From positions 1 through 63,018 of the IMG/VR virus record IMGVR_UViG_3300009119_000001: 63,018 bases of DNA. One strand, written 5' to 3'. The first letter of the stretch is position 1. Each line of letters begins with the position of its first letter. Both the position numbers and the translations under genes were made by a program. Positions 18,913 to 42,058 of the stretch are shown here, one piece after another. This DNA comes from a virus. The notes beneath the pieces were generated by a model, which saw only the letters and a program-made list of their open reading frames with translations, was not told the origin of the DNA and did not search any database.

Positions 18913-19302
18913 ATGGCAACAAAACCAGCTGTGAGGAGTAAGGAAAAACAGAAAGAATATTCAAAAACACATTACTACAAAAACCGAGAAGCAGTTATGG
19001 CAAGAGTGTCTGCCAACAAAAAGAAAGCCCGAGAATTCTGGGAAACATTTAAATCTAGGTTACGCTGTACCCAGTGTGGAGAATCCCACCCGGCTACTCT
19101 TGATTTCCATCACCTAGTGAAAGACCCATCCAACAAAAAGATAAATCATCTGACCTGTAACGGAGCTTATAAACAGGCAATTGAGGAGATACAAACTAAA
19201 TGCATCGTACTGTGTAGTAACTGCCATCGTAAGCACCACCACGAAGAAAGAAAACCCCTCAAGGTTGCGCTTGTCTCAAATGATAGCAGTCCAGAGGCGT
19301 GA
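18913..19302 (+). CDS. HNH-family endonuclease, probably homing type
   Basis: 129 residues from the ATG at 18913. A longer in-frame start at 18847 lies within promoter sequence. A basic N-terminal helical region is followed by a zinc-HNH core: CTQC (52-55), LDFHHL (63-68), CSNCHRKHHH (101-110). Paired cysteines would hold zinc, with H66/H67, N103 and H108 as the HNH residues. It is on the plus strand inside an otherwise minus-strand structural operon, the typical footprint of a self-inserted homing nuclease gene. It converges on pqqA. It could alternatively be a packaging-associated HNH protein, though those usually sit beside the terminase. Confidence 0.88.
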   Translation: MATKPAVRSKEKQKEYSKTHYYKNREAVMARVSANKKKAREFWETFKSRLRCTQCGESHPATLDFHHLVKDPSNKKINHLTCNGAYKQAIEEIQTKCIVLCSNCHRKHHHEERKPLKVALVSNDSSPEA

Positions 19303-19307
19303 GGGGT

Positions 19308-19326: not shown

Positions 19327-19398
19327 TTATTTATTCATTACGTACATTGTTACTTCAAAGCCAAAACGCATTTCTGTAGCAGCAGGTTTAGTCCACAT
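19327..19398 (-). CDS. pqqA: PqqA-like pyrroloquinoline quinone precursor peptide (23 residues)
   Basis: A 23-codon gene with ATG at 19398 and TAA at 19327, preceded by a clear AGGAG ribosome binding site. The peptide begins MWTKPA, has RFGFEVTMY at residues 11-19 and ends in NK, matching the known PqqA family in length and pattern. The family's essential residues are present at the right spacing: Glu15 and Tyr19, which PqqE cross-links to start PQQ synthesis. pqqB, C, D and E are absent from the window, so the peptide would need host enzymes. It lies on the late strand just downstream of the capsid terminator and convergent with the HNH gene. A 23-residue chance match of this quality is very unlikely. 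Whether it is expressed and matured is unknown. Confidence 0.9.
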   Translation of the reverse strand: MWTKPAATEMRFGFEVTMYVMNK

Positions 19399-19420
19399 AA
19401 TAATCTCCTAATTTGGTTTT

Positions 19421-19460: not shown

Positions 19461-19481
19461 TGTACACATTGTGCGCTTTTT

Positions 19482-19501
19482 TATACATATCACCATACGT
19501 A
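19482..19501. promoter_or_regulatory. Operator-like element upstream of pqqA, site 2
   Basis: TATACATATCACCATACGTA shares its left arm exactly with site 1 and part of its right arm. The start-to-start distance of 41 bases is close to four helical turns, which would put two bound proteins on the same face of the DNA. Confidence 0.4.
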
Positions 19502-19507
19502 GAATCA

Positions 19508-19532
19508 TTAAAAAAGCCCACCGAAGTGGGCT
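19508..19532 (-). terminator. Intrinsic terminator after the major capsid gene
   Basis: Read on the minus strand: AGCCCAC-TTCG-GTGGGCT followed by a run of T. It lies 33 bases past the capsid stop codon at 19565 and separates the capsid operon from pqqA and the tail operon. Partial read-through could feed pqqA. Confidence 0.92.
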
Positions 19533-19564
19533 CTAAACGTACCGGGTTTCCCCTGTCAGTTTAA

Positions 19565-20473
19565 TTAGGCACCGGCAGAGCCGTACATACCTAGTGGATC
19601 TGAATAGCCAAAGCTATAACGTTCACGTGATTTGTAGCGAACATTACCTGTGTCGAAGTCACCGTCCATTGAAGTAGACAGTGGTGAACGAACAAAGTGC
19701 TTCATACCGTTTGGCACGTCAGTAGTCAAGAACCATGCGTTTGTGTCGGTCAAGAAGTGGTTAATTGCGTAACCTTCTGGGATTGAACCGTTGTTTTTCA
19801 ACGCATTGATGTCATTGTCAGCTGTACCTACACGCAGTTCAGTTTCCAACAAGCGAGTTGCAACGAATTGCAGTGCTGGTGGGATAACCAACTTTTTAGG
19901 TTTAGCAGCAATCAGCAAACCGCGCTCATCAGTCCATGCTGCGATCTGAATAACTGCGTTTTCCAATGAAGTCTCGTTCAAATCTGACGCTACTGTTGGA
20001 ACGTTGCTGTTCACACCACCAGTTACTAATGGGTGGTCATTTGCAAACAATGCTTTACCATCACCGCCCGGGTATGAAGCACTGAAGCCGTTGTTTAGAA
20101 CGTTAGCCGCTTTAACCTGTTTGGTGTATGCCATAGCACGAGCCAGAGCTTTAGTGTAGCGAGCAGATAAAGTGTCATACAAGTTATCTTCTACTGCTTC
20201 TTCAGTCAAGCTGAAGCCCAAAGCGATGGTTTCGTGTGTGTATCGAGCAGTCCATGCTTCTTGAGCATTGTCGTAAGCGATGGCGTTGCCTTCGTTTTTA
20301 ACAGGTGCCGCTGAGAAGCCAGACAGTTTTGTTTCTTCCTCGAAAGAACGCTCTGAGGTCTCTGTTTCGTAGATCTCTTTGTGTTCTTCGCCGTAACGCT
20401 TGTACTCTAAGCCGAACAATGCGTTCAGACCCGGTAAAAGCTCTTTAAGTAGTTGTGCGCGTGAAATAGCCAT
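19565..20473 (-). CDS. Major capsid protein (Mu gpT-like HK97 fold)
   Basis: 302 residues. Features of the gpT-like major head subunit family are visible: an N-terminal helical region (RAQLLKELLPGLNALFGLEY), an Ala-rich central helix (YTKALARAMAYTKQVKAANVLNNGF), then ALFANDHPL, LIAAKPKKLVIPPALQF and a C-terminal RYSFGYSDPLGMYGS. It is preceded by a decoration-like gene and scaffold and followed by an intrinsic terminator, the usual end of a capsid operon. No N-terminal cleavage domain is seen, consistent with a separately encoded scaffold. Confidence 0.9.
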   Translation of the reverse strand: MAISRAQLLKELLPGLNALFGLEYKRYGEEHKEIYETETSERSFEEETKLSGFSAAPVKNEGNAIAYDNAQEAWTARYTHETIALGFSLTEEAVEDNLYDTLSARYTKALARAMAYTKQVKAANVLNNGFSASYPGGDGKALFANDHPLVTGGVNSNVPTVASDLNETSLENAVIQIAAWTDERGLLIAAKPKKLVIPPALQFVATRLLETELRVGTADNDINALKNNGSIPEGYAINHFLTDTNAWFLTTDVPNGMKHFVRSPLSTSMDGDFDTGNVRYKSRERYSFGYSDPLGMYGSAGA

Positions 20474-32518: not shown

Positions 32519-32723
32519 TGATGAGTTGCTTACGTGGTTAATTTTATATGGGAAGGAGAGAGTTAAACGAACAAAGGAAAACGTGGAAATAGCAGTGATA
32601 TTGGAAAACATGGGGTACGTAGATGACTACTGGTTTGGGGCGGAGCTTCAAATCACATCAACAGGACTACACCGGCTAAATCAATTAAGTAAACAAAACA
32701 AAAAACTAGGAGTCGTAAAATGA
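32508..32723 (+). CDS. Small winged-helix-like protein, 71 residues, GTG start
   Basis: The GTG at 32508 is chosen because it lies five bases past a perfect AAGGAGG. An alternative GTG at 32502 overlaps that site. DELLTWLILYG and TSTGLHRLNQLSKQNKK mirror the preceding protein. It overlaps the next gene (MoxR-like) by four bases. A DNA-binding role is possible. Confidence 0.7.
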   Translation: MTGDDELLTWLILYGKERVKRTKENVEIAVILENMGYVDDYWFGAELQITSTGLHRLNQLSKQNKKLGVVK

Positions 32724-33796
32724 GTAAATTAAATTTTGGTAGCGCAGTAACATTGAAACAGTTTGCAGATGCAGTAGTAACAGTAGGTAGAGACGTGACT
32801 ATCATCGGTCAGGGTGAGATGGGTATTGGGAAGTCATCAGTGTTAAAGACTATTGCCAAGCAGTTGCCCCACTACAACACAGCGTACATAGACTGCACAT
32901 TACTAGACTTGGGTGACTTTGCCCTGCCATATACACAGCAGGAAACAAAGATGAAGGTGACTAAGTTTGCGCCGAACGCTAGGTTTATGATGCACGAGGA
33001 CAAGCCAGTGATAGTGATGCTCGACGAGATTGGTAAGGCCATGAAGTCTGTTAAGAACGTCTTACTTACTTTGATGTTAGAGCATAGGATTGGTGATCAC
33101 CGCTTGCCCGAGGGTTCTATTGTGTTCGGTACTACTAACCTGATGGCAGAGGGTGTTGGAGATTTGATGGAGGCGCATGCCCGGAACCGTGTGTGTTTCA
33201 TTACAGTAGAGAAACCTGATGCTGATGTGTGGATAGATAACTTTGCTATACCTAACGGGTTGGATGCGACTGTTATTGCGTGGGTTAAGCAGTTCCCTCA
33301 GTGTTTGGCTTCATTCACAGACCCAGCACAGCGTGAGAATCCATACATATTCCAGCCGACACGTGCCGGCACTACGGCCTTTGTTACACCACGTTCATTA
33401 GAGAAGGCTAGTCAGGTCGCAGCAAAACGTGAAGTGTTAGGCGATGGAGTTACCATAAGCATGTTATCAGGTGTTATCGGTGAGAGCGCAGCCCGTGATA
33501 TGCAAGCGTTCTTTACTGTGGCGGACAAGCTCCCATCATGGGAGGCAGTAATCAAAGCGCCGACTACGACCCCACTGCCTACTGATACCGTAGCTAAATG
33601 CATTATGGTGTTCAGTGCACTAAGTAGGGTAGAGAAAGATACATTGAGTAAGTGGATGGAGTATGTGCAGAGAATGGATCTCGAGTGGCAAGCGCTGTTC
33701 GCTAAATCTATTGTGATGTCATCAGCCAAACAAAGCATGGCTATTGGTAACGCAGACTTTAAAAACTGGGCACTAAAAAATCAATGGGTATTCTAG
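32720..33796 (+). CDS. MoxR-type AAA+ ATPase
   Basis: 358 residues. Walker A GQGEMGIGKSS (30-40), Walker B VIVMLDEIG (98-106) and a sensor region IVFGTTN are clear. The N-terminal ATPase core and C-terminal helical lid match MoxR/CobS-like AAA+ proteins. These normally act with a partner carrying a von Willebrand A domain, and such a partner is encoded at 34417. The pair remodels or inserts metals into protein complexes in bacteria. Phage versions are widespread and unexplained. In methylotrophs a MoxR works on methanol dehydrogenase, but this protein need not. Confidence 0.88.
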   Translation: MSKLNFGSAVTLKQFADAVVTVGRDVTIIGQGEMGIGKSSVLKTIAKQLPHYNTAYIDCTLLDLGDFALPYTQQETKMKVTKFAPNARFMMHEDKPVIVMLDEIGKAMKSVKNVLLTLMLEHRIGDHRLPEGSIVFGTTNLMAEGVGDLMEAHARNRVCFITVEKPDADVWIDNFAIPNGLDATVIAWVKQFPQCLASFTDPAQRENPYIFQPTRAGTTAFVTPRSLEKASQVAAKREVLGDGVTISMLSGVIGESAARDMQAFFTVADKLPSWEAVIKAPTTTPLPTDTVAKCIMVFSALSRVEKDTLSKWMEYVQRMDLEWQALFAKSIVMSSAKQSMAIGNADFKNWALKNQWVF

Positions 33797-34070: not shown

Positions 34071-34420
34071 AAGTTAAAGTCAGTGAAGCAAGTGGTGCGG
34101 CGTTGGATTGGGCAGTGACTAAGTGTGAGGGACGGTCAGAGCCAGAAGTAGTAAATAACTTTAAAATCGCGTGGTATACGTGGGGAAATACCCACTATTC
34201 AACAAACTGGCTTGTAGGCGGGCCGATTATTGAGCGTGAAGAAATATCTTTGTCTACGGGATATGAGTGGGAAGCCGTAAAAGACATAGACGTGCGCGGC
34301 AGAACAGACGTGGTTTTAGCGCATGGTGAAACCCCACTCATAGCCGCGATGCGGTGTTATGTAGCTAGCAAATTGGGGGATGAAGTCGAAGTACCTGATG
34401 AAATAGGAGAAGGTAAATGA
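34067..34420 (+). CDS. DUF2591-like phage protein
   Basis: 117 residues. VSEASGAALDWAVTKCEG at the start, GGPIIERE in the middle and TPLIAAMRCYVASKLGDEVEVPDE at the end form the typical pattern of a phage/prophage family known only as DUF2591. It overlaps both neighbours by four bases. The family is widespread in accessory regions, with no known function. Confidence 0.82.
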   Translation: MKVKVSEASGAALDWAVTKCEGRSEPEVVNNFKIAWYTWGNTHYSTNWLVGGPIIEREEISLSTGYEWEAVKDIDVRGRTDVVLAHGETPLIAAMRCYVASKLGDEVEVPDEIGEGK

Positions 34421-35571
34421 GTAAACTATCAGCGGAACAACGAGTACAACGGGCTCATGTGTGGTTAATGGGCAACCCTGAGTACGTATTATATTCAGGC
34501 ATCATGATGATGGGCAGTACCGAGGTGAGGGATGATGTACCTACTGCATGCACTAATGGTAAAGATGTTTTGTATGGTAGAACATTCATTGATGGGTTAT
34601 CAGACCCAGAGGTACGTGGTTTGGTATTGCATGAGAACTTACACAAAGCATTCCGGCATATGACTGTGTGGGAGAACCTATACAACGAGGACGCTAGGCG
34701 GGCGAATATGGCGTGTGATTATGTTATAAACCTCATGATAGTGGACAGCGATAAGTCCGGCAGTAATGTGAAGTTGCCCAAAGGTGGATTGATAGATGAG
34801 CAGTATCGTGGGCTAGATGCACATACCGTATTCCGATTGCTGAAGGATGATGGACAGGGTGGGGGCGGTGGTGGTGAAGGGTTTGATGAGCATGACTGGG
34901 AGGGTGCTAAGGAACTAAGTAAGGACGAGAAAGAATCTCTAGCCCGGGAAGTTGATCAGGCGCTACGTCAAGGTGCGATACTGGCAGGGAAAATGAAAGG
35001 TAGTGTAGCCCGAGAGATTGCCGAGCAGTTAGAAGCTAAGGTCGATTGGCGTGAGGTGTTGCGAGATTTTGTATCGTCCAGATGTGTTGAGCGTGACTAT
35101 TCATCATACCGCAGGCCGAACCGTAGGTGGATAAGCGAGGAAGTATACCTGCCATCTATGGAGGGTGAAACCCTTGGGGATATTGTAGTTGCCATAGATA
35201 CATCAGGCTCTATTGGTAGTGCGGAACTGGGTCAGTTCTTGGGGGAGATGATGAGTATATGTAACTCTGTTCGTCCGAGTAAGGTGCACTTGTTGTATTG
35301 GGATACCGAGGTGGCCGGACATGAGACGTATGAGCAAGGGGAGTACGAAGGGTTGATTAACAGTACTAAGCCAGCAGGTGGGGGGGGTACACAGGTTGAG
35401 TGTGTGCCCGAGTATATCAAGGAGAAAAAGATTAACGCTGAGTGTTGCGTAGTTTTGACTGATGGGTACTTAGGCGGTGGCTGGGGTGATTGGTCAGTGC
35501 CAGTGCTATGGGGTATTACATCTAAGGGTATCACCGCTGATGTAGGAACATCTGTATATGTGGGAGATTAA
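34417..35571 (+). CDS. VWA-like metallopeptidase-domain protein, MoxR partner
   Basis: 384 residues. The N-terminal domain carries HENLH (72-76), an HExxH zinc-peptidase motif, in the context RGLVLHENLHKAFRH. A Gly-rich linker lies at 147-153. The C-terminal domain is a von Willebrand A fold with the metal-ion-dependent adhesion motif DTSGS (261-265), a Thr at about 325 and LTDG (347-350). This matches the DUF2201-type putative metallopeptidase plus VWA family that pairs with MoxR/CobS ATPases. The intact catalytic and metal-binding residues argue for activity. Substrate unknown. Confidence 0.88.
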   Translation: MSKLSAEQRVQRAHVWLMGNPEYVLYSGIMMMGSTEVRDDVPTACTNGKDVLYGRTFIDGLSDPEVRGLVLHENLHKAFRHMTVWENLYNEDARRANMACDYVINLMIVDSDKSGSNVKLPKGGLIDEQYRGLDAHTVFRLLKDDGQGGGGGGEGFDEHDWEGAKELSKDEKESLAREVDQALRQGAILAGKMKGSVAREIAEQLEAKVDWREVLRDFVSSRCVERDYSSYRRPNRRWISEEVYLPSMEGETLGDIVVAIDTSGSIGSAELGQFLGEMMSICNSVRPSKVHLLYWDTEVAGHETYEQGEYEGLINSTKPAGGGGTQVECVPEYIKEKKINAECCVVLTDGYLGGGWGDWSVPVLWGITSKGITADVGTSVYVGD

Positions 35572-41767: not shown

Positions 41768-41933
41768 ATTATCAGATGTATTTGACCAACTTATGGCGGG
41801 CGATATAAAACCAAAAGAAGCAGGGGAACTTGCCAACGTAGCTGGTAAGATGATTAACAGTGCTAAGGTTCAACTTGAGTACTATGCGCTACGAAAAGAA
41901 ACCCCGAACATTGATTTCTTAAAAGGGGATTAG
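41739..41933 (+). CDS. Small conserved helical phage protein, 64 residues
   Basis: TQLRDELSDVFDQLMAGDIKPKEAGELANVAGKMINSAKVQLEYYALR is nearly all helix. Similar short proteins are frequent in phage early operons (L...L......G.I....A.EL.N.AGK.I....VQLEY). Good AGGAG site. Unknown role, possibly regulation of transcription. Confidence 0.72.
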   Translation: MKSVTQLRDELSDVFDQLMAGDIKPKEAGELANVAGKMINSAKVQLEYYALRKETPNIDFLKGD

Positions 41934-41935
41934 TT

Positions 41936-42058
41936 ATGCTTAACGGTATGCTCGAGTACGTGCTATGTTATAGCGAAGCATTTTTCCTTGGGTTTGCTGT
42001 GGGGATCATTTGCTTTATGGTGAGTGATATAAAAAGGCAGACAAATGATAGACCGTAG
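41936..42058 (+). CDS. Tiny membrane peptide, 40 residues
   Basis: ATG at 41936, TAG at 42056-42058. One membrane segment (about 12-30, YSEAFFLGFAVGIICFMV) and a short basic tail (SDIKRQTNDRP). It overlaps the next gene by 14 bases. Packing and composition support it. No function recognised. Confidence 0.55.
   Translation: MLNGMLEYVLCYSEAFFLGFAVGIICFMVSDIKRQTNDRP

Follow-up and report, generated by a model that had tools for sequence, protein, structure and literature searches.

A stand-alone gene for the PQQ precursor peptide PqqA with a candidate host-type upstream motif in the capsid module of a probable methylophage

The best-known phage metabolic genes, psbA and other cyanophage auxiliary genes, are phage copies of short-lived or rate-setting components of host metabolism. 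They encode an enzyme or a reaction-centre protein, whereas the gene described here encodes a precursor peptide of 23 residues that is itself consumed. Glu and Tyr of PqqA are the residues that become pyrroloquinoline quinone (PQQ), and one PqqA peptide is consumed per PQQ made. The presence of pqqA in phages is already known. In Lake Baikal, the phage population VP_266, predicted to infect Methylophilaceae, carries pqqA beside a phage methanol dehydrogenase, and a benefit for methanol oxidation has already been proposed for this gene (Coutinho et al. 2020, PMC7678222). Neither the promoter nor the copy number or distribution of the phage gene is analysed in the accessible text of that paper. 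A study of a reservoir (PMC13188868) also lists viral pqqA. Among the freely available full-text journal articles searched, none dealing with pqqA in cultured methylophages was found, and PQQ appears in the Melnitz paper solely as an addition to the medium. In bacteria, multiple copies of pqqA accompanying a single pqqBCDE cluster (PMC4109929) and solitary, strongly expressed copies (PMC9851590) have been published. What is new here is a pqqA that stands alone, is widespread, belongs to a different phage family and is predicted to retain host-type control, together with nine cultured carriers lacking a pqqA annotation, purifying selection on the phage gene, and the excess of pqqA over pqqE copies in the hosts.

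The locus was found in a 63,018-nt viral record (IMG/VR IMGVR_UViG_3300009119_000001), the whole of which is called the window. As far as VP_266 is described in the accessible text, it shares with the window a phage-borne pqqA, a predicted Methylophilaceae-type host and the same proposed benefit, but it is T4-like and carries a methanol dehydrogenase, whereas the window phage has a capsid of the HTVC023P-like family and no such dehydrogenase was found in it. The solitary chromosomal pqqA copies of Methylophilaceae (PMC4109929, PMC9851590) encode an identical peptide in a unit away from pqqBCDE, with apparently the same plan of upstream motif, -10 element, ribosome binding site and terminator as the phage cassette; the window copy differs in lying on a phage, within the capsid module. 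The pqqA genes of the cultured methylophages P19250A, Venkman, MEP301, MEP401/402 and Melnitz belong to the same peptide family and also stand alone, and that of P19250A matches the window promoter too, but these phages have unrelated genome types and carry the gene elsewhere, at a late/early junction or next to tRNA-Leu.

The pqqA ORF occupies positions 19327-19398 and is read on the minus strand from 19398 to 19327, ATG to TAA, in 24 codons comprising 23 residues (MWTKPAATEMRFGFEVTMYVMNK) and the stop; the assignment draws on the translation, the TIGR02107 and PF08042 models, conservation and pN/pS. A ribosome binding site, AGGAG (19405-19409, minus), lies 6 nt before the ATG, and a purine-rich site also precedes pqqA in relatives. 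The plus-strand reading of the same interval gave a meaningless translation and was discarded. The peptide scores 40.4 bits with TIGR02107, whose cut-off is 20 (E 1.8e-10, model positions 1-21 of 21), and, queried without the first Met, 41.2 bits with PF08042, whose cut-off is 21.1, about twofold above both curated cut-offs. It was the sole match of the PqqA profiles in the 63-kb record, and none was obtained in 14 control genomes. Glu15 and Tyr19 are present in the translation as E-x-x-x-Y. Among the loci fetched, letter-identical peptides number 16 in bacteria, mostly Methylophilaceae, and 18 in phages. The identification of the ORF as PqqA is well supported by these sequence comparisons, and the preliminary description, which had proposed a PQQ precursor peptide of 23 residues with this start codon, AGGAG site and Glu/Tyr pair but had given no strand, is borne out on the minus strand.

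The contig encodes a major head protein, portal, terminase large subunit, DNA polymerase and helicases assigned to phrog families, and its capsid protein is 72% identical to that of Planktothrix phage Pag-Yong1 and 64% to that of pelagiphage HTVC023P. Because these families are present and the capsid-pqqA junction recurs in independent contigs, the gene is taken as a metabolic gene within a true phage genome. Neither PqqE nor a PQQ-dependent methanol dehydrogenase was found in the window contig; the record is classed as 'linear' and possibly incomplete, and therefore these absences hold for this contig only. A pqqB-E neighbourhood is typical of PqqA without defining it: the window has no PqqE, and the solitary Methylophilaceae copies likewise lack this neighbourhood. 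The earlier suggestion of a single-peptide gene without pathway enzymes is upheld as regards PqqE. Elsewhere in the window, a DUF2201/VWA metallopeptidase-like protein (34417-35571, plus) is encoded beside an AAA ATPase (32720-33796, plus), so that this phage encodes a pair resembling MoxR-VWA.

The upstream neighbour of pqqA is the major capsid protein gene (19565-20473, minus; phrog_371), and an HNH endonuclease gene (18913-19302, plus; phrog_2255) converges with it, an arrangement recurring in L096/L178, L044/L187 and L084. A hairpin resembling an intrinsic terminator, GAGCCCACTTCGGTGGGC-TTTTTT (19510-19533, minus), was read by eye after the capsid gene; it is missing from the output of a consensus scan, and comparable hairpins were seen by eye between the capsid gene and pqqA in L044, L065, L084, L048, L095 and others. 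Directly after pqqA, a second hairpin with a T-rich tail (19250-19307, minus; fold -17.8 kcal/mol) is likely a terminator, and such a structure follows pqqA in most members of the capsid group, again as judged by eye. This hairpin resembles the Rfam abiF RNA (RF03085), scoring 27.1 bits at 19254-19306 (minus), under the gathering score of 37, while the same structure in L096 (4292-4329, minus) reaches 45.5 bits, above it. No Abi_2 gene occurs in the window, and the hairpin may be nothing more than a terminator, or else the phage's version of an antitoxin-like RNA. The cassette comprises, in order, the capsid-gene terminator, an operator-like motif, a -10 element, the ribosome binding site, the ORF and the hairpin. 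Since terminator-like hairpins stand before and after it, pqqA looks like an independent transcription unit. Among 17 fetched pqqA contigs with capsid proteins 75-90% identical to that of the window, pqqA lies downstream on the capsid strand in all 17, and in 12 of them 48-266 nt 3' of the capsid gene; loss of the frame in close relatives, which the preliminary description had regarded as evidence against the gene, was not what these contigs revealed.

The operator-like motif of the window, TTTAATGATTCTACGTATGG (19493-19512, minus), is a candidate copy of an element common to host and phage pqqA upstream regions. Expectation-maximization (EM) motif finding, run separately on host (n=118) and phage (n=104) regions, returned the same element from both, CTCATGATTTTCCTTAG for the hosts and TaATGATTTTcctTA for the phages, with log-likelihoods of 886.9 versus 60.1 for shuffled host regions and 468.9 versus 55.0 for shuffled phage regions. 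With a threshold of 12 bits, the host matrix recognized 106 of 124 host regions and 56 of 123 phage regions; with a threshold of 8 bits it recognized 82 of 123 phage regions versus none of 73 capsid relatives lacking pqqA, a score reached by 0.7% of Markov-simulated regions. The window copy, correctly placed and with one C in the conserved T run, scores 5.6 bits by the host matrix, equalled by 2% of null regions, and 19.5 bits by the phage matrix, which was itself partly trained on it; the motif of the relative L096 reaches 14.9 bits. A -10-like element, AAAAGCGCACAATG (19467-19480, minus; hexamer CACAAT at 19468-19473), follows 12 nt after the motif, the commonest phage spacing, and fits the phage consensus AaAAGaGcATAATt derived by EM, while a consensus sigma-70 scan did not include it among the listed sites. 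Phages mostly show this 12-nt gap, some having 34-36 nt, whereas in hosts the gap to a GCGTATAATG-like -10 element is 35-38 nt. Because these spacings are fixed, they argue for a predicted working activator site. Motif, -10 element and gene of the window all align with those of P19250A, an unrelated siphophage, which suggests that the pqqA cassette moves as a whole; the window motif was also aligned with that of its relatives.

Two other explanations of the motif were rejected. A general phage late promoter does not account for it, the short core occurring 6 times in the window against 5.45 expected and the motif being absent from the 73 capsid relatives without pqqA. For an RNA element, Rfam gave nothing credible upstream of pqqA; host copies of the motif point either way, and a DNA site is therefore favoured. 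Six host genomes have the majority of their motif sites before pqqA, and the CTCATGATTTTCCTTAG motif was located 5' of scattered host copies (L331, L334, L336, L337, L343, L346, L349, L351, L354, L358). One site of Methylophilus methylotrophus (L343) lies immediately 5' of pqqB; elsewhere, katG (L344) and a gene for an OmpA-type lipoprotein (L340) are also preceded by a site. The motif looks like the site of a PQQ-centred regulon in Methylophilaceae, which is apparently undescribed, no description of such a regulon having been found in the full-text literature searched.

Bacterial loci with PqqA of the MRFGFEVTMY form come nearly all from methylotrophs; the great majority are from Methylophilaceae and Methylophaga, and a few are from Methylomonas or from unplaced proteobacteria. 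As bacterial PqqA of this form and the exact peptide are found there, the host of the window phage is most likely a member of the Methylophilaceae, in agreement with the methylotrophic host class supposed beforehand. Across 100 genomes from the family to which Methylotenera mobilis 13 belongs (Methylophilaceae), 458 pqqA genes were counted (mean 4.6, range 1-12), while PqqE above the cut-off was found about once per genome. What the host has multiplied is the gene for the substrate and not those for the catalysts, presumably because each PQQ consumes one peptide, and the phage would add one further copy of it, mirroring the host arrangement. The same numbers leave some room for a more modest role, in which a true PqqA merely sustains PQQ synthesis through a shut-off of host transcription and does not lift it above the level of uninfected cells. 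Hosts already hold several pqqA genes, so that one more would be a small dosage unless the host copies were silenced, and the phage copy seems to retain host-type control; host shut-off in these phages was, however, not found documented in the literature searched, and we regard this role as unlikely. A substrate-only auxiliary gene that adds to PQQ supply is the reading preferred here.

The distribution of the gene was surveyed in named phages and in viral metagenomes. A tblastn search of the peptide matched 12 named-phage records. Nine are cultured Methylophilales/Methylophilaceae phages (P19250A, Venkman, MEP301, MEP401, MEP402 and four Melnitz phages), and one is a podovirus from Manatee Spring with a peptide identical to that of the window. 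The remaining two are 'Acinetobacter phage' records holding a bacterial pqq cluster. The record named 'Acinetobacter phage MD-2021a' (CAKLQF020000010.1, L327) contains a pqqBCD-type cluster, polyphosphate kinase and Fur; in this part, at least, it appears to be host chromosome, and it was set aside as bacterial. None of the nine cultured methylophages has pqqA annotated: P19250A, Venkman, MEP301, MEP401 and MEP402 have no feature on the gene, and in the Melnitz phages it is overlapped only by a 'hypothetical protein', on the opposite strand in Melnitz-1. Degenerate DNA patterns for the GFEVTMY codons retrieved at least 120 stretches from IMG/VR, and a complete PqqA is encoded in 120 of 120 among the matches listed. 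The expectation that most pipelines would miss the gene was borne out.

Co-occurrence was assessed in 50 chosen pqqA records, 44 viral contigs and six whole genomes of named phages. All 50 contain pqqA, none has PqqE above the cut-off (one gave a weak radical-SAM match) and a single one, a 72-kb contig, has methanol dehydrogenase; many of the records are partial contigs, and absence weighs less for the short ones. In that 72-kb contig (L043; G015:C1:34049-35731 and 41890-41952), a PQQ-dependent methanol dehydrogenase accompanies pqqA, comparable to Baikal VP_266. Shared-gene grouping at three shared genes placed the pqqA phages in 31 groups, only an upper-bound impression because the contigs are short. 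Phage pqqA is common and usually stands alone. In two capsid relatives (L018, L024), the PqqA is of a different type and its gene lies at a greater distance 3' of the capsid gene; it may have been acquired independently, to suit a different host.

That the peptide stands without its enzymes would also fit a decoy or a regulatory role, in which it binds PqqD/PqqE or a sensor and is not converted to PQQ. In the case of a decoy the crosslinked pair would be expected to be altered or lost, and in many instances phage peptide and host substrate have the same sequence. Glu15 and Tyr19 are retained in all listed phage peptides, the search pattern having imposed GFEVTMY on the IMG/VR set, and equally in the isolates found by tblastn with no fixed pattern. 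A decoy is accordingly very improbable, and conversion of an intact substrate remains the favoured interpretation.

Selection on the gene was estimated from pooled pair counts, ignoring kinship, which gave pS 0.59 and pN 0.11 for all phage copies, a ratio of 0.19. Because the search pattern had fixed seven residues, the ratio was recomputed without them, giving 0.29; in the capsid group of the window it is 0.14, or 0.21 without the pattern-fixed residues. Between L096 and the window, pqqA shows five synonymous changes and zero amino-acid changes. Phage pqqA is, as judged from these substitution patterns, under purifying selection, and the lack of selection that the preliminary description had considered damaging to its proposal was not found. 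In the capsid tree, 15 carriers require 6 changes versus a mean of 14.1 after shuffling, with none of 500 shuffles as low, and 11 of the 12 members of the window's set carry pqqA; many forks of this tree are weak, and carriers were gathered by pattern while the others were gathered by capsid similarity. Chance acquisition of host DNA as an unselected passenger might be suspected from the small cassette adjoining an HNH endonuclease, a mobile element, and from the nearest capsid loci fetched, of which 78 of 80 lack pqqA, the two with pqqA at this place being contigs already in the pqqA set. Against it stand a pN/pS far below 1, the maintenance of the gene in unrelated phages together with its clustering in one capsid clade, and the likewise retained regulatory motif and -10 spacing, so that a passenger is as hard to credit as a decoy. 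An assembly artefact joining bacterial pqqA to phage sequence, for which the bacterial sequence under the label 'Acinetobacter phage MD-2021a' might be invoked, is refuted by the capsid-pqqA junction in 12 independent contigs and by the complete cultured phage genomes carrying pqqA.

Phage pqqA is probably a genuine, substrate-only auxiliary metabolic gene whose cassette is designed for expression. During infection, the host RNA polymerase and a host factor reading the motif would transcribe it, and host PqqD/PqqE with the remaining pathway would turn the phage peptide into PQQ. New methanol dehydrogenase (XoxF/MxaF) would stay charged with PQQ, and methanol oxidation would continue as host transcripts fall. 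Phage pqqA may in this way raise PQQ and methanol oxidation. In Acetobacter pasteurianus, overexpression of pqqAB gave an increase of 29%, versus eightfold with pqqABCDE; because this effect of a partial pathway is modest, substrate need not be limiting (PMC7936290). We lean, with less assurance, towards a more general view, in which stand-alone pqqA cassettes with a host PQQ-type operator would form a mobile, substrate-only auxiliary gene of methylophages, left under the host regulator.

The gene also marks a routine blind spot, as a 69-nt gene that is common in viral metagenomes escaped annotation in five or more deposited genomes of methylophages. The common promoter motif offers a concrete handle on the apparently undescribed PQQ regulon of Methylophilaceae. 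If the proposed function is true, a class of phage metabolic genes would provide not an enzyme but a precursor peptide made on ribosomes, and phages would deliver a consumed precursor encoded by the same gene that the host has multiplied. Viruses of abundant freshwater and marine methylotrophs would then affect methanol oxidation via cofactor supply.
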